DNA of 53,275 nt from Candidatus Kerfeldbacteria bacterium (lineage in GTDB: Bacteria > Patescibacteriota > Patescibacteriia > UBA9570 > XYC2-FULL-38-9). Below are positions 32,292 to 38,182 of the stretch, in pieces. The notes under the pieces are model-generated. The model had not been told where the DNA came from. It searched no databases and worked only from the letters and a program-made list of their open reading frames with translations. The position numbers were made by a program, and so were the translations under genes. The first letter of the stretch is position 1; each line of letters begins with the position of its first letter. Where the stretch lies: contig JAHBAR020000012.1 of assembly GCA_018500015.2 (NCBI GenBank), positions 1-53,275 on the forward strand. The letters are read 5' to 3'.

Positions 32292-33011
32292 ATGTCTGGA
32301 CATTCCAAGTGGGCAACAATTAAACGCCAAAAAGCGGTGACTGATGCAAAAAAAAGTGCTTCCTTTACAAAGCTTGCGAAAAATATCTCTGTTGCCGCGC
32401 GCAATGGCAAAGATCCAAATATGAATTCAGCGCTTCGTGTTGCTATTGAAAAAGCTCGCGAAGGCAACATGCCCAAAGACAACATCGAGCGTGCTGTGCT
32501 CAAAGGTGCTGGCGAGCTTCCCGGAGTTACATATGAAGAAATTACGTATGAGGGGTATGCGCCGGGCGGTGTTGCAGTCATGATCGAATGCGTGACGGAC
32601 AATACCAATCGCACTGTGCAAAATCTGCGCGCCATTTTTTCCGATCACGGTGGAGCGTTGGGCAGTGCAGGGAGCGTGAAATTTTTGTTCGATTACACTG
32701 GTGTGATTCGTGTGCCATTCGAAGATCAAAAAAAATCCATCGAAGATATTGAGTTACTTGCAATCGACGCTGGCGCTTCTGACATTCGCGCTGAAGAAGA
32801 GGGGATGACTATTCTTGTTTCAAAAGAGCAACTGCCAACATGTGTGAGCGCGCTTCAAAAAGAAGGTGTGACGATTGTTGAAAGTGGAGTTGAGTGGGTG
32901 GCAAAAACGTTGACTGCAGTTGAGGAGAGCGCGCGTGAATCTTTTGAGGCGTGTATCGCAGAGGTGGAAGAACACGATGACGTAAATAGAGTATTTACCG
33001 CTGCTGCATGA
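32292..33011 (+). CDS. yebC: YebC/PmpR family regulatory protein
   Basis: YebC/TACO1 proteins were long annotated as transcription regulators and more recently linked to translation of difficult peptide stretches. The 239-residue protein has the signature start MSGHSKWATIKRQKAVTDAKK, then DPNMNSALRVAIEKAREGNMPKDNIERAV and YEGYAPGGVAVMIECVTDNTNRT, all family hallmarks. Its stop overlaps the ruvC start (ATGA), the frequent yebC-ruvC pairing. Confidence 0.96.
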   Translation: MSGHSKWATIKRQKAVTDAKKSASFTKLAKNISVAARNGKDPNMNSALRVAIEKAREGNMPKDNIERAVLKGAGELPGVTYEEITYEGYAPGGVAVMIECVTDNTNRTVQNLRAIFSDHGGALGSAGSVKFLFDYTGVIRVPFEDQKKSIEDIELLAIDAGASDIRAEEEGMTILVSKEQLPTCVSALQKEGVTIVESGVEWVAKTLTAVEESARESFEACIAEVEEHDDVNRVFTAAA

Positions 33012-33484
33012 TTACTGCGCTGGGCATTGATCCCGGAGTTGCCATTACCGGTTTTGCCGTGGTGTCTTGTGACGCAGGCAAGTATACATTAAAAGAGTAC
33101 GGGGTCATTCGTACACTCGAACGCACACCATTACCGGAGCGGCTCCACTTGTTATATCGCGACATGAACAGTGTGTTGGAACGCTATGAGAGCGTTGATG
33201 TTGCAGGGGTTGAAGAGTTATTTTTTGCGAAAAATGTCACCACAGCATTCATGGTTGGACAGGCTCGCGGAGTTATTTTGCTTGCGCTTGAAGGACGAGG
33301 TGTGCGCATCCGCGAATTTAAGCCTGTTGAGGTTAAATCGTTAATTGTTGGCAACGGTCAAGCAAAAAAAGCAGATGTGCAACGCATGGTGCAGCTCACT
33401 TTTGGATTGCAAAAGCCGCCGCAACCAGACGATGCGGCTGATGCTGTCGCTATCGCGATGGCTGCCTGTAGCGCTATAAATTAG
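33008..33484 (+). CDS. ruvC: Crossover junction endodeoxyribonuclease RuvC
   Basis: RuvC is the Holliday-junction resolvase. The four catalytic acids are visible: D8 in GIDPG, E69 in VEELFF, and D142 and D145 in DDAADAVAIA. KNVTTAFMVGQARGVIL matches the conserved central helix. 158 residues, normal length. It is coupled to yebC by a 4-nt overlap; ruvA is 3 kb downstream on the same strand; ruvB is not in the window. Confidence 0.97.
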   Translation: MITALGIDPGVAITGFAVVSCDAGKYTLKEYGVIRTLERTPLPERLHLLYRDMNSVLERYESVDVAGVEELFFAKNVTTAFMVGQARGVILLALEGRGVRIREFKPVEVKSLIVGNGQAKKADVQRMVQLTFGLQKPPQPDDAADAVAIAMAACSAIN

Positions 33485-33565: not shown

Positions 33566-35164
33566 ATGCGTATTCAACGTTCGATTTCATTGCTTGCTGT
33601 GTGCACCATATTTTTTTCTGTGCATACAATTGTGCGTGCACAAGAAGCGACGAATACCAATACCGAAGCGGTAGTCGTTTCAGAGGTTGCAACACCAACA
33701 CTGCCGTTTGTTGCTAATGGTGGTGAGGATCGTAACGTGATCGTTGGACGCACTGTATTGTTCGATGCATCAGCTTCTACAGGCCCACAAGATGCAACAT
33801 ACACCTATAGCTGGGATTTTGGTGACAGCAACACAGGCGAAGGTATTGATGCGGCACATATCTATGAATATCCGGGAACATATCGCGCAACGTTGACGGT
33901 ACACATGCAAAGCGCAAATGAATTTTCAACCAGCACAGATGATATTATCGTCTCTGTGCAGGATCGGTTAGTGGTATTGCTCGCGGACCATAGTGTTTCA
34001 AATGAGGCATTGAAACAATGGCAAGATTATGCGCAAACACAACGCGTGCTTCTTGTGCCTATTCAAGACACTGGAATGAATCAAGAATATCTCACTGTCC
34101 AAAACCTCGCGCAACAAATTTTACAAAATCAAACAACTATCGCGTCTGCGGACACCATCATTGTGTGGACAGCTAGTAGTATTGGGCTGAACTCTTTGCT
34201 TGAGCTTTCTCGCATCTCTTCGTTTAATGGTACTCAGCTCGATACACTGCGTCTGAGTTCAAAAGCTATTGTTGCGCTTACCGATCAGTCTTTGAGTTCG
34301 AGTGCAAAATTGGCGCAATCAGTCATGCAAGCGCTGTCACCAAGATTCATTGTTGTTACTCCACCACAGGCTATCGACACCATTCTTCGCTCTCCACGCC
34401 CTGAAGATATAGAGCGTGCCTTGCCACAATTGTCTGTTGATTATCAGCTCATTACCGCATATACGGCTCGTGGTTTACAGCAGTTGAGCCCATTCAATGC
34501 AATGTCGTATGCGATGAATTTTATGTTTAACCATGGTGTGCCGGTCAACTCTGTATATTTGATTTTGATGTTACCGGTGATGGCAACAATCATAGCTACC
34601 GCTCGACAACTTGTGGGCATTAAGTCGTTCGGTATTTTTGCGCCAACAGTTATTGCATTATCATTTCTTTCGACAGGTTTGAAGTATGGTATCGGTATTT
34701 TTGCGTGCGTGCTTATCATTGGTGGTATTGGAAGATTGTTGCTCAAACGTTTTCGCATTTTGTATCTTCCACGCATGGCTCTCGTTCTTTCACTTTTAGC
34801 ACTCGGTGTATTTGGTATGTTGTTTGTTGGCGCACTCTTTAATAAAACAGGGTTCATTGCTGTTTCGATTTTTCCAATTCTTATTATGACGGTGATTGCC
34901 GAGCACTTTATTTCTGTGCAGATTGAAGATGGATTTAGCGTCGCGTTAAAACTCACCCTTGAAACGCTCGCATTGTCCGTTTTAGGTTTCTTGATTGGCG
35001 ATTGGGCGTTGTTTAAAACCACTATCCTTGCGTATCCGGAATTGATTTTACTTACGCTTGTTGTAAATTATCTTCTCGGTAAGTATTCAGGACTACGTCT
35101 TACAGAGCTGCTTCGTTTTCGTAAAGTGATTAATCGCATGCATCATGATCAGAAACCGCAATAG
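33566..35164 (+). CDS. PKD-domain protein with 7TM domain (UUP/7TM_transglut-like)
   Basis: This 532-residue protein has a signal peptide (MRIQRSISLLAVCTIFFS, cut near VRA), a PKD domain (about 45-140, with SYSWDFGDSNTGEG-like WDFGD), a further extracytoplasmic alpha/beta-looking region (about 140-310) and seven C-terminal helices. The membrane part (LPVMATIIATARQLVGIKSFGIFAPTVIALSFL... ending YSGLRLTELLRFRK) matches the 7TM domain that in proteobacteria is fused to an inactive transglutaminase and encoded beside an ATP-grasp ligase and a retropepsin-like protease. Here a PKD domain takes the place of the transglutaminase. The next gene overlaps by 20 nt and supplies both enzymes. Start 33566 was chosen for the signal peptide. 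Confidence 0.8.
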   Translation: MRIQRSISLLAVCTIFFSVHTIVRAQEATNTNTEAVVVSEVATPTLPFVANGGEDRNVIVGRTVLFDASASTGPQDATYTYSWDFGDSNTGEGIDAAHIYEYPGTYRATLTVHMQSANEFSTSTDDIIVSVQDRLVVLLADHSVSNEALKQWQDYAQTQRVLLVPIQDTGMNQEYLTVQNLAQQILQNQTTIASADTIIVWTASSIGLNSLLELSRISSFNGTQLDTLRLSSKAIVALTDQSLSSSAKLAQSVMQALSPRFIVVTPPQAIDTILRSPRPEDIERALPQLSVDYQLITAYTARGLQQLSPFNAMSYAMNFMFNHGVPVNSVYLILMLPVMATIIATARQLVGIKSFGIFAPTVIALSFLSTGLKYGIGIFACVLIIGGIGRLLLKRFRILYLPRMALVLSLLALGVFGMLFVGALFNKTGFIAVSIFPILIMTVIAEHFISVQIEDGFSVALKLTLETLALSVLGFLIGDWALFKTTILAYPELILLTLVVNYLLGKYSGLRLTELLRFRKVINRMHHDQKPQ

Positions 35165-36572
35165 AGTTTTGGGAATGAACGGTCGCAGTCGATTTTATCT
35201 GCGCGAAAATTCTGCCACAGCTCGCGACATCGCAGATAATAAATTGCGCACAAAAGAGCTGTTGGTGCAACATGGCATCGGTGCTGCCGAGCTCATTGCG
35301 GTCCTTCGCACTCCTCAAGACATCGAACAGTTTGCATGGGACGCACTCCCAAATAGTTTTGTGATGAAACCGAATCGTGGATTTGGCGGTGAGGGGATTT
35401 TGGTGATTTTTAATCGCCTTAAAAATGGTCGCTGGCTTACCACTCGCCAACGCGAAGTGTCGGCAGAAGATTTTGCATCACACGCGCACGATATTCTTGA
35501 TGGCGATTTTTCGCTTTTTAACATGCCTGATGTTGCATTGATAGAGCGACGTCTTTCGATTGATCCACTTTTTAAACGGTTTTCTGTTGAGGGTATCCCA
35601 GATATTCGCGTGATTGTGTACCACAACGTTCCTGTGATGGCTATGTTGCGCGTACCAACAAAAAAATCACAAGGCAAGGCAAATCTCGCACAAGGTGGCT
35701 TGGGTATTGGCATTGATATTGCAACTGGCATGACAACACATGCAATTACCAAGTCATGGATGTATGAAAAGGAGATTGATTTGCATCCTGATACCGGAAT
35801 GCACTTGCGTGGTGTGCGCGTTCCATACTGGGCCGATATTTTGCGCACGGCCGTACTTTCTGCACGTGTTGTTGGTTTACAATTTTGTGGTGTTGATATT
35901 TCAATCGATAAAAAATTGGGGCCGGTGGTTCTTGAACTCAATGCGCGTCCGGGGTTGGCAATTCAGGTGGCAAATATGTCGCCATTAGGAGAGCGTTTGG
36001 AGCGCATTCGTGGTTTGAATGTTGAAACTCCTGACCGTGGTATCGCCATTGCAAAAGAGCTATTTGTAAGCAGCATTGATCAAGAAATCGCAAGTATGAC
36101 CGGTCGACAAGTGATTGGGTTGATTGAGCCTGTTACTGTTGTGAGCACTACAGAAGCGAGTAAACACTTCAAAGCAAAAATTGATACCGGCGCTGACCGT
36201 AGCTCTATTGATCAGGCGTTTGCACGCGATTTGGGTTATGGTACGGCCATTGATGCCTTCGCAGCGTTGAATATTCCGGAAGATGTTACGGAAGAGGAGG
36301 CGCACACGTATGCTCAGCAGCATGAGCAACGTTTAATGGCTGAGTATCCGGAAATTAAAGGGATGACTGTTGTTAGCTCTTCGCACGGTGTCTCGCTCCG
36401 CATTCGTATTCCGCTGACAGTGACGCTTGCAGGGTATAAGATGGATATTGAAGCGACCGTGTTTGATCGTTCACATCTCATGTATCCAATGTTAATTGGA
36501 AAACGTAACCTCTCACATTTTTTGATCGATACCACAAAGTCGCCGGATACAGTAACGAAGAAGAAAAAATAA
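35145..36572 (+). CDS. RimK-like ATP-grasp ligase fused to retropepsin-like protease
   Basis: This 475-residue protein has two parts. Residues about 8-310 are an alpha-L-glutamate-ligase-like ATP-grasp enzyme: the start LGMNGRSRFYLREN, DNKLRTKELLVQHGI, VMKPNRGFGGEGILVI (ATP-grasp loop) and VVLELNARPGL (metal-binding acids). Residues about 320-460 are a RimB-like retropepsin domain with the catalytic triplet DTGADRSSI (D347) and the second flap region MLIGKRNL. In other bacteria these are separate genes beside a 7TM protein; here they are fused and follow the 7TM gene with a 20-nt overlap. A ligase that adds and a protease that trims amino-acid tags on the same target is the likely theme; the target is unknown. 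Confidence 0.85.
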   Translation: MIRNRNRVLGMNGRSRFYLRENSATARDIADNKLRTKELLVQHGIGAAELIAVLRTPQDIEQFAWDALPNSFVMKPNRGFGGEGILVIFNRLKNGRWLTTRQREVSAEDFASHAHDILDGDFSLFNMPDVALIERRLSIDPLFKRFSVEGIPDIRVIVYHNVPVMAMLRVPTKKSQGKANLAQGGLGIGIDIATGMTTHAITKSWMYEKEIDLHPDTGMHLRGVRVPYWADILRTAVLSARVVGLQFCGVDISIDKKLGPVVLELNARPGLAIQVANMSPLGERLERIRGLNVETPDRGIAIAKELFVSSIDQEIASMTGRQVIGLIEPVTVVSTTEASKHFKAKIDTGADRSSIDQAFARDLGYGTAIDAFAALNIPEDVTEEEAHTYAQQHEQRLMAEYPEIKGMTVVSSSHGVSLRIRIPLTVTLAGYKMDIEATVFDRSHLMYPMLIGKRNLSHFLIDTTKSPDTVTKKKK

Positions 36573-36573
36573 T

Positions 36574-37176
36574 ATGATCGCAACACTTACCGGAACAGTA
36601 CAATCTATCGATGCCGTTGGTGTTATTCTCGAAGTGTCGGGTGTTGGTTATCGCGTTATGCTTTCGGGTCGTGATGCGCAACAATGCACACAGGATACAC
36701 GCGTACGTGTCTATACCTATCACCATATTCGCGAAGATGCACAGCAACTATTTGGATTTTTGGATGTACATGATCTGCGTGTGTTTGAACGCTTGATTAG
36801 TGTTTCGGGCGTAGGGCCAAAAATTGCACAAGCCATCCTTTCTCAACTTTCCGGAGTTGCGGTCATTGATGCAATTTTGACGCAGAACATTACACAACTC
36901 AAAAGTATCTCAGGTGTTGGCAAAAAAACAGCAGAGCGTTTAATTGTTGAGCTGCGCGACTCGTTGAAGAAGATGAGTACCGGGAGTGGCAGAGAAGAAA
37001 ACAGCTCACATGTTGCATTGAGCACTCACATTGATTTGGTACAAGCGTTGTTGGCACTTGGATACGCTGAGATGGAAATTCATGAGGTTATAAAAGATGT
37101 TGATGCGTCGTTGTCGCTCAGCGAGCAAGTTCGTGCCGCTCTTCAACTTCTTTCTCGAACACCATATGCACGTTGA
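36574..37176 (+). CDS. ruvA: Holliday junction branch migration protein RuvA
   Basis: RuvA binds four-way junctions and loads the RuvB motor. The 200-residue protein has the N-terminal OB fold (MIATLTGTVQSIDAVGVILEVSGVGYRV), tandem helix-hairpin-helix motifs (LISVSGVGPKIAQAIL and LKSISGVGKKTAERLIVEL), an acidic-pin HIREDAQQLFGF segment and the C-terminal RuvB-contact domain (DLVQALLALGYAEMEI). It starts one base after the ATP-grasp gene's stop and overlaps the next gene. Confidence 0.96.
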   Translation: MIATLTGTVQSIDAVGVILEVSGVGYRVMLSGRDAQQCTQDTRVRVYTYHHIREDAQQLFGFLDVHDLRVFERLISVSGVGPKIAQAILSQLSGVAVIDAILTQNITQLKSISGVGKKTAERLIVELRDSLKKMSTGSGREENSSHVALSTHIDLVQALLALGYAEMEIHEVIKDVDASLSLSEQVRAALQLLSRTPYAR

Positions 37177-38182
37177 ACGTTGTGAGATCCAAGCGGTGTG
37201 GGAAGAGTGCGTGCAAAAATTTGCGCAGCCGCAACACACCTTTTTGCAATCATGGGCGTGGGGTGAAGCGCAGAAAGAGGCTGGCAATCCGATTGCTCGC
37301 ATTTTAGTTTCTGATGAGCGTGGTGTTGCTGCTGTCATGCTGTGTGTTGTGCAAGATCTTTTTTTTGGTATGCGCGTCGTGCTTTCACCTCGTGGACCGT
37401 TGTGTCGTGAGGGTGTTTCTACAGATCATGTGATTGCCGCAGTGCGTTCATCAATGATTTTTCAAGATCTTGTAGCACAGCATCGTGTCATTGCATTACG
37501 TGTTGAGCCCGAAGAAGCTATTGCTGTAGGTAAGCGTATTAAAGATGTTGAACCGGCGACAACATGGATGATCCCGCTCGCAAAGTATACGCAAAATACA
37601 TTGTGGAAAGCGTTAAAGCAAAAAACACGTTACAATATTCGCCTCGCAGAGAAGCATGGTGTTCGGGTTGAACGTGTGCAGCATGAGTATTCTATCGACC
37701 GCATTCTTGATGTGTGGAAAAAAATGGCGACGCGTACAAGTGAACGTCACGGCATTGCGCAACATCCCACAGCATATTATCGCTCGATATTTTCTACTCT
37801 CAAAAATGCTGACATGCTTGAAGTGTCAATTGCATTTTTAAGAAATAACCCAATTGCGATCACCATTGGTGTCTCTTGGGGTAACACAGCGACGTATTTG
37901 TATGGCGCCTCTGATCACACACAACGCGCGATCATGGCTCCTTCGCTTTTACAGTGGATGATGATCGATGAAGCGCTCAGTCGTGGCTTTGTGTGGTACG
38001 ATTTTTATGGTGTTGCGCCTGAGGGAGTTGAGGATCATTCACTTTCTGGCGTGACTCGTTTTAAACAAAGTTTTGTTGGTGAATATCGCACATATCCAGG
38101 CACGTATGAGATCCCTCTGCGCCCGATGTGGTATGCTATGTATCGATGGATACGAACACTTCGCCGATTTCTACGGCAATAA
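37166..38182 (+). CDS. FemAB/FmhB-like aminoacyltransferase (peptidoglycan cross-bridge)
   Basis: These GNAT-fold enzymes use aminoacyl-tRNA to add amino acids to the peptide side chain of lipid II. The 338-residue protein has an N-terminal GNAT half (FLQSWAWGEAQKEAGNPIARIL, VLSPRGPL), the conserved link LWKALKQKTRYNIRLAEKHGVRVE, and a C-terminal half with NPIAITIGVSWGNTATYLYGASD and the ending FKQSFVGEYRTYPGTYEIPL. Start 37166 (MHVERCEIQ) overlaps ruvA by 11 nt; an upstream in-frame ATG would overlap more. It is part of a cell-wall stretch with the next two genes. Confidence 0.88.
   Translation: MHVERCEIQAVWEECVQKFAQPQHTFLQSWAWGEAQKEAGNPIARILVSDERGVAAVMLCVVQDLFFGMRVVLSPRGPLCREGVSTDHVIAAVRSSMIFQDLVAQHRVIALRVEPEEAIAVGKRIKDVEPATTWMIPLAKYTQNTLWKALKQKTRYNIRLAEKHGVRVERVQHEYSIDRILDVWKKMATRTSERHGIAQHPTAYYRSIFSTLKNADMLEVSIAFLRNNPIAITIGVSWGNTATYLYGASDHTQRAIMAPSLLQWMMIDEALSRGFVWYDFYGVAPEGVEDHSLSGVTRFKQSFVGEYRTYPGTYEIPLRPMWYAMYRWIRTLRRFLRQ

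Follow-up and report, generated by a model that had tools for sequence, protein, structure and literature searches.

Among described systems, the closest to the locus analysed here is RloABC of Pseudomonas aeruginosa, which affects osmotic stress tolerance, cell shape, and antibiotic resistance, and whose membrane protein RloB was reported as 96% Proteobacterial (PMC12239564). Its protease, RloA, has a signal peptide, is predicted to be periplasmic or secreted, and contains a disulfide in crystal structures; K46, R114, and R137 contact polyglutamate in the RloA model, and R114 and R137 are needed in vivo (PMC12239564). On ribosomal protein S6, RimK adds and RimB removes glutamates, RimB also stimulates polyglutamate synthesis by RimK, and the protease of the RimBK hybrid of Desulfotalea psychrophila is active on polyglutamylated S6 (PMC11957791). 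In humans, the TMCP1/2 (MATCAP) enzymes strip polyglutamylation from tubulin (PMC10499314). No published description of the Patescibacteria system reported below was found among the openly accessible papers searched, an absence that is no proof of novelty.

The locus lies in a 53,275-nt stretch of a Candidatus Kerfeldbacteria genome (contig JAHBAR020000012.1, assembly GCA_018500015.2), referred to here as the window. Two open reading frames overlap by 20 nt on the forward strand, exactly where the initial annotation had placed them, and contain the following features:

33008..33484, + strand: ruvC, upstream neighbor, context only (PF02075)
33566..35164, + strand: gene 1, RloB-type 7TM membrane protein with PKD and Rossmann-like ectodomain, 532 aa (ORF, Pfam and NCBIfam profiles, AlphaFold2)
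33566..33643, + strand: signal-like N-terminal hydrophobic segment, residues 1-26, probably cleaved (hydropathy 1.83 over residues 7-25; predicted helix 2-18)
33698..33964, + strand: PKD domain, residues 45-133, extracytoplasmic (Pfam PKD_4 1.5e-18; fold match)
33965..34465, + strand: unnamed Rossmann-like alpha/beta domain, residues 134-300, ~170 aa (AlphaFold2 pLDDT ~90; fold matches)
34490..35149, + strand: 7TM core, residues 309-528, with conserved basic cytosolic tail GLRLxExxRFR (PF14402; conservation)
35145..35164, + strand: overlap of gene 1 and gene 2, 20 nt (ORF list)
35145..36572, + strand: gene 2, ATP-grasp ligase fused to retropepsin, 475 aa, without signal segment (ORF, profiles, hydropathy)
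35160..36017, + strand: ATP-grasp ligase domain of RloC/RimK type, residues 6-291, with K75, D251, E264, and N266 invariant (profiles, alignments)
36093..36539, + strand: retropepsin domain, residues 317-465 (PF05618, NCBIfam RloA3, crystal-structure relatives 9g59/9g58)
36183..36194, + strand: catalytic DTGA, D347-A350 (D347, G349, and A350 invariant in homologous fusions)
36399..36401, + strand: R419, counterpart of the polyglutamate-contacting R114 of RloA (aligned to 9g59)
36468..36470, + strand: R442, counterpart of the polyglutamate-contacting R137 of RloA (aligned to 9g59/9g58)
36574..37176, + strand: ruvA, starting 1 nt past gene 2, context only (Pfam)

The family identities first proposed for both proteins were borne out by Pfam profiles scoring above their cut-offs: gene 1 matched PF14402 (7TM_transglut; E 5e-30, residues 323-521, 105.1 bits against a cut-off of 25), and gene 2 matched PF05618 (Zn_protease, the RimB/RloA retropepsin family; E 2.3e-8, 34.5 bits against a cut-off of 27, best stretch 388-461). 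A PKD domain had also been described in place of the Proteobacterial transglutaminase. PKD_4 was indeed recovered (E 1.5e-18, residues 49-129), its fold resembling the PKD domain of collagenase G (Z 14.4, 85 residues, rmsd 1.8), and no transglutaminase domain was matched in gene 1 by Pfam, in the AlphaFold2 model, or by fold comparison; the description was incomplete, however, as the model (overall pLDDT 87.8) places an unnamed Rossmann-like domain, which had been missed, at residues 134-300, between the PKD domain (45-133) and the membrane helices (309-528). A Pfam search of residues 134-300 returned no family. The best fold matches of this domain, to one lobe of glutamate-receptor N-terminal domains (Z ~10, 127 residues, rmsd 3.2), are near the level of other Rossmann folds such as a receiver domain (Z 8.8), and the domain is thus assigned to the fold class only. 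The RloB model NF052267 matched only the 7TM part of gene 1, with 76.9 bits, below its cut-off of 900 bits. The basic C-terminal tail and a K/R-rich loop at residues 391-402 would fit a cytosolic tail and an outside ectodomain by the positive-inside rule. In homolog alignments the tail is among the best-conserved stretches of the membrane protein, and it is a plausible dock for the fused enzyme.

Whole-protein Foldseek matches to gene 1 were filled by the PKD domain, and hence the 7TM core of a homolog was folded alone (pLDDT 93.6). In fold comparisons the isolated core came closest to RnfA/NqrD/NqrE, membrane subunits that translocate ions (Z 8-10, ~125 residues, rmsd 3.1-3.7), and to anion channels of the ALMT type (Z 7-8, ~160 residues, rmsd 4.5-5.3), although Z below ~13 for helical bundles may reflect a common helical arrangement only; Foldseek with the isolated core gave a best match at E 0.76, and a PDB profile search with the core gave no match. 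Homology of the core to CapC/PgsC, suggested by eye, was rejected at the sequence level: hhalign against one tandem CapC gave E 0.51 and 0.2, PF14102 (CapC) matched no 7TM locus in 50 genomes with a 7TM gene, even at E 10, and a PDB search with the tandem CapC matched no chain. The only CapC match among the 379 Patescibacteria genomes surveyed belongs to a genome that also has the 7TM family (G006), in which a Mur-ligase-like gene resembling CapB by eye precedes one whose product has two CapC (PF14102) repeats (L137:167-2490).

Gene 2 encodes ligase and protease in one polypeptide, as initially described, with ATPgrasp_ST (PF14397; E 2.6e-66, residues 14-288, 224.1 bits against a cut-off of 31.4) followed by Zn_protease with an intact DTGA. 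The ligase is a close relative, below threshold, of the alpha-L-glutamate ligase-like RloC family TIGR02291 (E 7.2e-81; 271.6 bits against a cut-off of 314.2), and its D251, E264, and N266 fall in a stretch that can be aligned with RimK-type ligases of solved structure. The protease part also matched NCBIfam RloA3 (3.1e-7); its D347 is invariant in an alignment of 22 homologous fusions, and this half is expected to work as a dimer. Scores of independent genomes share the architecture of gene 2, which rules out chance or assembly artefact as the source of the fusion. Some loci hold longer fusions of 854-921 aa (L114:2227-4989 and L246:3218-5782), which combine ATP-grasp and retropepsin with, as shown in L114, a further ATP-grasp domain, and one holds a second, different ATP-grasp and retropepsin fusion right behind the first (L061:4241-5716).

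The initial annotation had contrasted separate Proteobacterial neighbors with a fusion here. The fusion stands, but RloA is predicted to be periplasmic (PMC12239564), so the compartment also changes, and the secretion of the Proteobacterial retropepsin, as opposed to the non-secreted one here, had been overlooked. The RloA hallmarks, a signal peptide and disulfide cysteines, are not found in the 57 site-intact fusions checked: not one of them begins with a hydrophobic stretch (Kyte-Doolittle maximum 0.94), and the protease part is free of cysteines in 46 of the 57, with two or more in only two. For these reasons the fused retropepsin is taken to be cytosolic, like RimB, and on this sequence-based assignment the predicted change of compartment relative to RloA goes beyond gene fusion.

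In the sample of 379 Patescibacteria genomes, the 7TM family PF14402 was present in 109 (~29%), and locus architecture was read in ~120 loci. The pairing expected in relatives was found: of 117 loci having both the 7TM and the ATP-grasp gene, 115 carry them side by side on one strand, with an overlap in 57, and the pair is a standing Patescibacteria system. In the window’s own genome (1.07 Mb; completeness 98.8%), each family is represented once. Named relatives belong to Kerfeldbacteria, the closest (mostly 60-67%, one MAG labeled Microgenomatus), and to Falkowbacteria, Moranbacteria, Paceibacterota, Dojkabacteria, and other groups. One related fusion, from a MAG labeled Micavibrio sp. (L170), is probably a binning or labeling error. 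The ectodomain is variable, with 56 of 125 7TM proteins having PKD and Rossmann-like domains, 16 the Rossmann-like domain only, and 53 neither, so that the conserved unit is the membrane core, of 211-230 aa in the minimal form, plus the enzyme. Recognition outside the cell through the PKD domain, initially given as a central idea, does not hold as such, since PKD is absent in 69 of the 125 proteins and the whole ectodomain in 53, and PKD is better regarded as accessory.

The ruv genes around the pair in the window are a local feature, since ruvC occurs in 39 loci, always upstream on the same strand, but ruvA in only 8. A FemAB-family gene (window positions 37097-38182) overlaps the end of ruvA. 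A second ATP-grasp gene, of RimK type, often follows the pair on the same strand (29 loci; L246:5792-7414 and similar) and may be another ligase of the pathway. In 15 loci, including L275:2595-5513, the pair is followed on the same strand by a penicillin-binding protein with transglycosylase and transpeptidase domains, a possible cell-wall link.

The protease site falls into two states. By our own domain profiles built from these loci, the D[TS]GA motif is intact in 61 fused copies and degenerate in another 61, counts in which one gene appears twice, through the overlapping loci L082 and L282, and which take in a few fragments at contig edges; by genome, with no genome counted twice, the site is intact in 60 of 120 and degenerate in 60 of 120. 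A lost site is a motif call, and copies with DTGL, DTGI, or DTGV might still cut. Aligned to the RloA-type structures 9g58/9g59, position 345, R419, and R442 match K46, R114, and R137 of RloA, and the two arginines are spaced 23 residues apart in fusion and RloA alike. Among the 61 site-intact copies, a lysine or arginine occupies position 345 in 60, and arginine is kept at 419 in 60 and at 442 in 59; of the 61 degenerate copies, only 3 still have R442. One copy counted as intact by motif (L260) lacks two of the three basic residues.

Where the retropepsin site has decayed, another protease is almost always present. MATCAP was found in 55 of the 60 site-lost genomes and absent in five, of which four encode, within the gene cluster, a separate retropepsin with an intact site, an arrangement seen in four DTGL relatives, and one lies on a truncated contig; a second protease is thus present in 59 of the 60. 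In the 60 site-intact genomes, MATCAP was present in 15 and absent in 45. The association of MATCAP with site loss over the 120 genomes (Fisher p 3e-14) is naive and inflated by relatedness: on the ligase tree the site state changes only 5-7 times, and a sign test on five independent pairs, too few to reach significance, gave a median p of 0.25. Every clade with a lost site has a replacement protease. In 38 of the 61 degenerate copies a MATCAP domain (PF08014, e.g. 3.9e-47) is itself fused at the C-terminus, which needs two changes on the tree; HExxxH is present in all but one of the 38, the exception (L099, G106) being broken by a frame shift, and no fusion with an intact retropepsin site carries a fused MATCAP. 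Ten site-degenerate genomes without a complete fused MATCAP were searched, and all ten have a MATCAP match, nine within ~6 kb of the 7TM gene.

Across the 379 genomes, 66 have both the 7TM family and MATCAP, 43 only the 7TM family, 18 only MATCAP, and 252 neither, and in 57 of the 66 with both, the two are in the same locus. Some intact systems also adjoin MATCAP (e.g. L078, L079, and L082), so that MATCAP is not only a substitute but also a partner of the system; a profile search of the window’s own genome found no MATCAP. Genomes of family f28 (e.g. G311 and G236) have divergent MATCAP-like genes of ~450 aa without the 7TM system. Bacterial MATCAP proteins may act as deglutamylases by analogy with the human enzymes, for which alone deglutamylation is known here. 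The near-constant presence of an alternative protease, in most cases an unrelated one, where the trimming half has decayed suggests that trimming is essential to the system.

We consider it somewhat probable that the two genes form a membrane-coupled add-and-trim machine for polyglutamate or another acidic peptide. The ATP-grasp half of the cytosolic fusion protein would make an acidic peptide chain, most likely poly-alpha-L-glutamate, which the dimeric retropepsin half would cut; the enzyme would work with the RloB-type 7TM protein, probably through its conserved basic cytosolic tail, and the chain would be made, attached, or passed on at the membrane, with the PKD and Rossmann-like ectodomain as optional outside attachments. 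A joint, membrane-linked add-and-trim system had already been proposed, and it gains support from the adjacency in 115 of 117 loci, the 57 overlaps, and the replacement of the protease. Polyglutamate would be the simplest product because the ligase residues and the substrate-contact residues are kept and two deglutamylase-type proteases are involved. Fusing ligase and protease may tune synthesis, since RimB stimulates RimK. Ribosomal S6 was judged an unlikely target, as the S6 of the window’s own genome has DSEVK rather than EE at its C-terminus, which speaks against the classic RimK substrate. More specifically, and tentatively, Patescibacteria may have their own membrane polyglutamate synthase, a single cytosolic ligase-protease whose poly-alpha-glutamate, controlled in length, would be exported or attached to the envelope by way of a small 7TM core resembling a transporter, and in which deglutamylases of two unrelated classes, retropepsin and MATCAP, were swapped several times.

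Two fates of the product are equally possible: it would stay free, as an exported or osmotic polymer, or be attached as a tag to a protein or to a component of the envelope. A narrower form of the add-and-trim explanation, possible but rather doubtful, is polyglutamate synthesis and export, with the 7TM protein as a transporter-like conduit for a free acidic surface or envelope polymer whose chain length is set by the protease, a role comparable to that of PgsBC(A) gamma-polyglutamate, but ATP-grasp-made. The minimal form of membrane core plus enzyme is consistent with this, and the Rnf/Nqr and ALMT fold matches point the same way, though at Z scores that may reflect helix arrangement only. 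Pseudomonas lacking the secreted RloA proteases is rescued when RloB or RloC is lost as well (PMC12239564), as we would expect if RloB and RloC deliver a product that accumulates outside; a cytosolic protease, however, would cut before export, unlike RloA, and the sequence comparison with CapC was negative. In a further alternative, a protein or envelope component would be polyglutamylated at the membrane, where the 7TM protein would present or be the acceptor, with glutamates added by the ligase and removed by the protease, as RimK and RimB do on S6 (PMC11957791). A writer-eraser fusion and the strongly conserved 7TM tail would fit such reversible tagging; we nevertheless regard it as unlikely, as no obvious acceptor gene is found among the frequent neighbors of the pair and the S6 of the window’s genome is without the EE end.

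A sensor, in which ligand binding to the PKD and Rossmann-like ectodomain outside the cell makes the 7TM protein activate the enzyme in the cytosol, would draw on the ectodomain present in 72 of 125 7TM proteins and on the resemblance of the middle domain to a glutamate-receptor lobe, but that resemblance is hardly above other Rossmann folds, and pair and fusion persist in the 53 proteins without any ectodomain, which makes this reading improbable. It is quite improbable that the protease half is purely structural or regulatory and MATCAP an unrelated passenger: many degenerate copies do keep the domain in place, and the stimulation of RimK by RimB (PMC11957791) offers a precedent, but catalytic and contact residues go hand in hand, being conserved in 61 copies and lost from the others, and a second protease accompanies nearly every loss.

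Under the preferred add-and-trim explanation, the swap between deglutamylase-type proteases would be an independent hint at a polyglutamate substrate, one directly testable in vitro with a single soluble fusion enzyme, and the system offers a way into the biochemistry of bacterial MATCAP proteins, which are related to the tubulin deglutamylases. Compared with known systems, the gamma-polyglutamate synthase PgsBC(A)/CapBC also combines a ligase and a small membrane protein, a possible analogy only, but has another ligase fold and a gamma linkage. MATCAP/TMCP proteins (PF08014; bacterial QEGLA family TIGR02421) are represented by the HExxxH metallopeptidase fused or adjacent in relatives, though absent from the window’s own genome. 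RimK/RimB likewise add and trim glutamates, likely with the same chemistry, but have no membrane partner, and the S6 of the window’s genome is without the terminal EE. The RimBK hybrid also joins a retropepsin and a RimK-like ligase in one polypeptide, but with the protease first, a RimK-type ligase, and no 7TM partner described, whereas here the protease is C-terminal and the ligase RloC-type; this reverse order indicates that the Patescibacteria fusion was a separate event. RloABC shares the retropepsin, 7TM membrane protein, and ATP-grasp ligase in one operon and the same polyglutamate-contact residues, but RloA is separate and secreted, with a disulfide, whereas here the protease is predicted to be cytosolic and is fused behind the ligase, and RloB has an inactive transglutaminase where the ectodomain here is PKD and Rossmann-like, or absent. 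The two-gene Patescibacteria version would thus strip the Rlo system to its core of ligase, trimmer, and small membrane protein.
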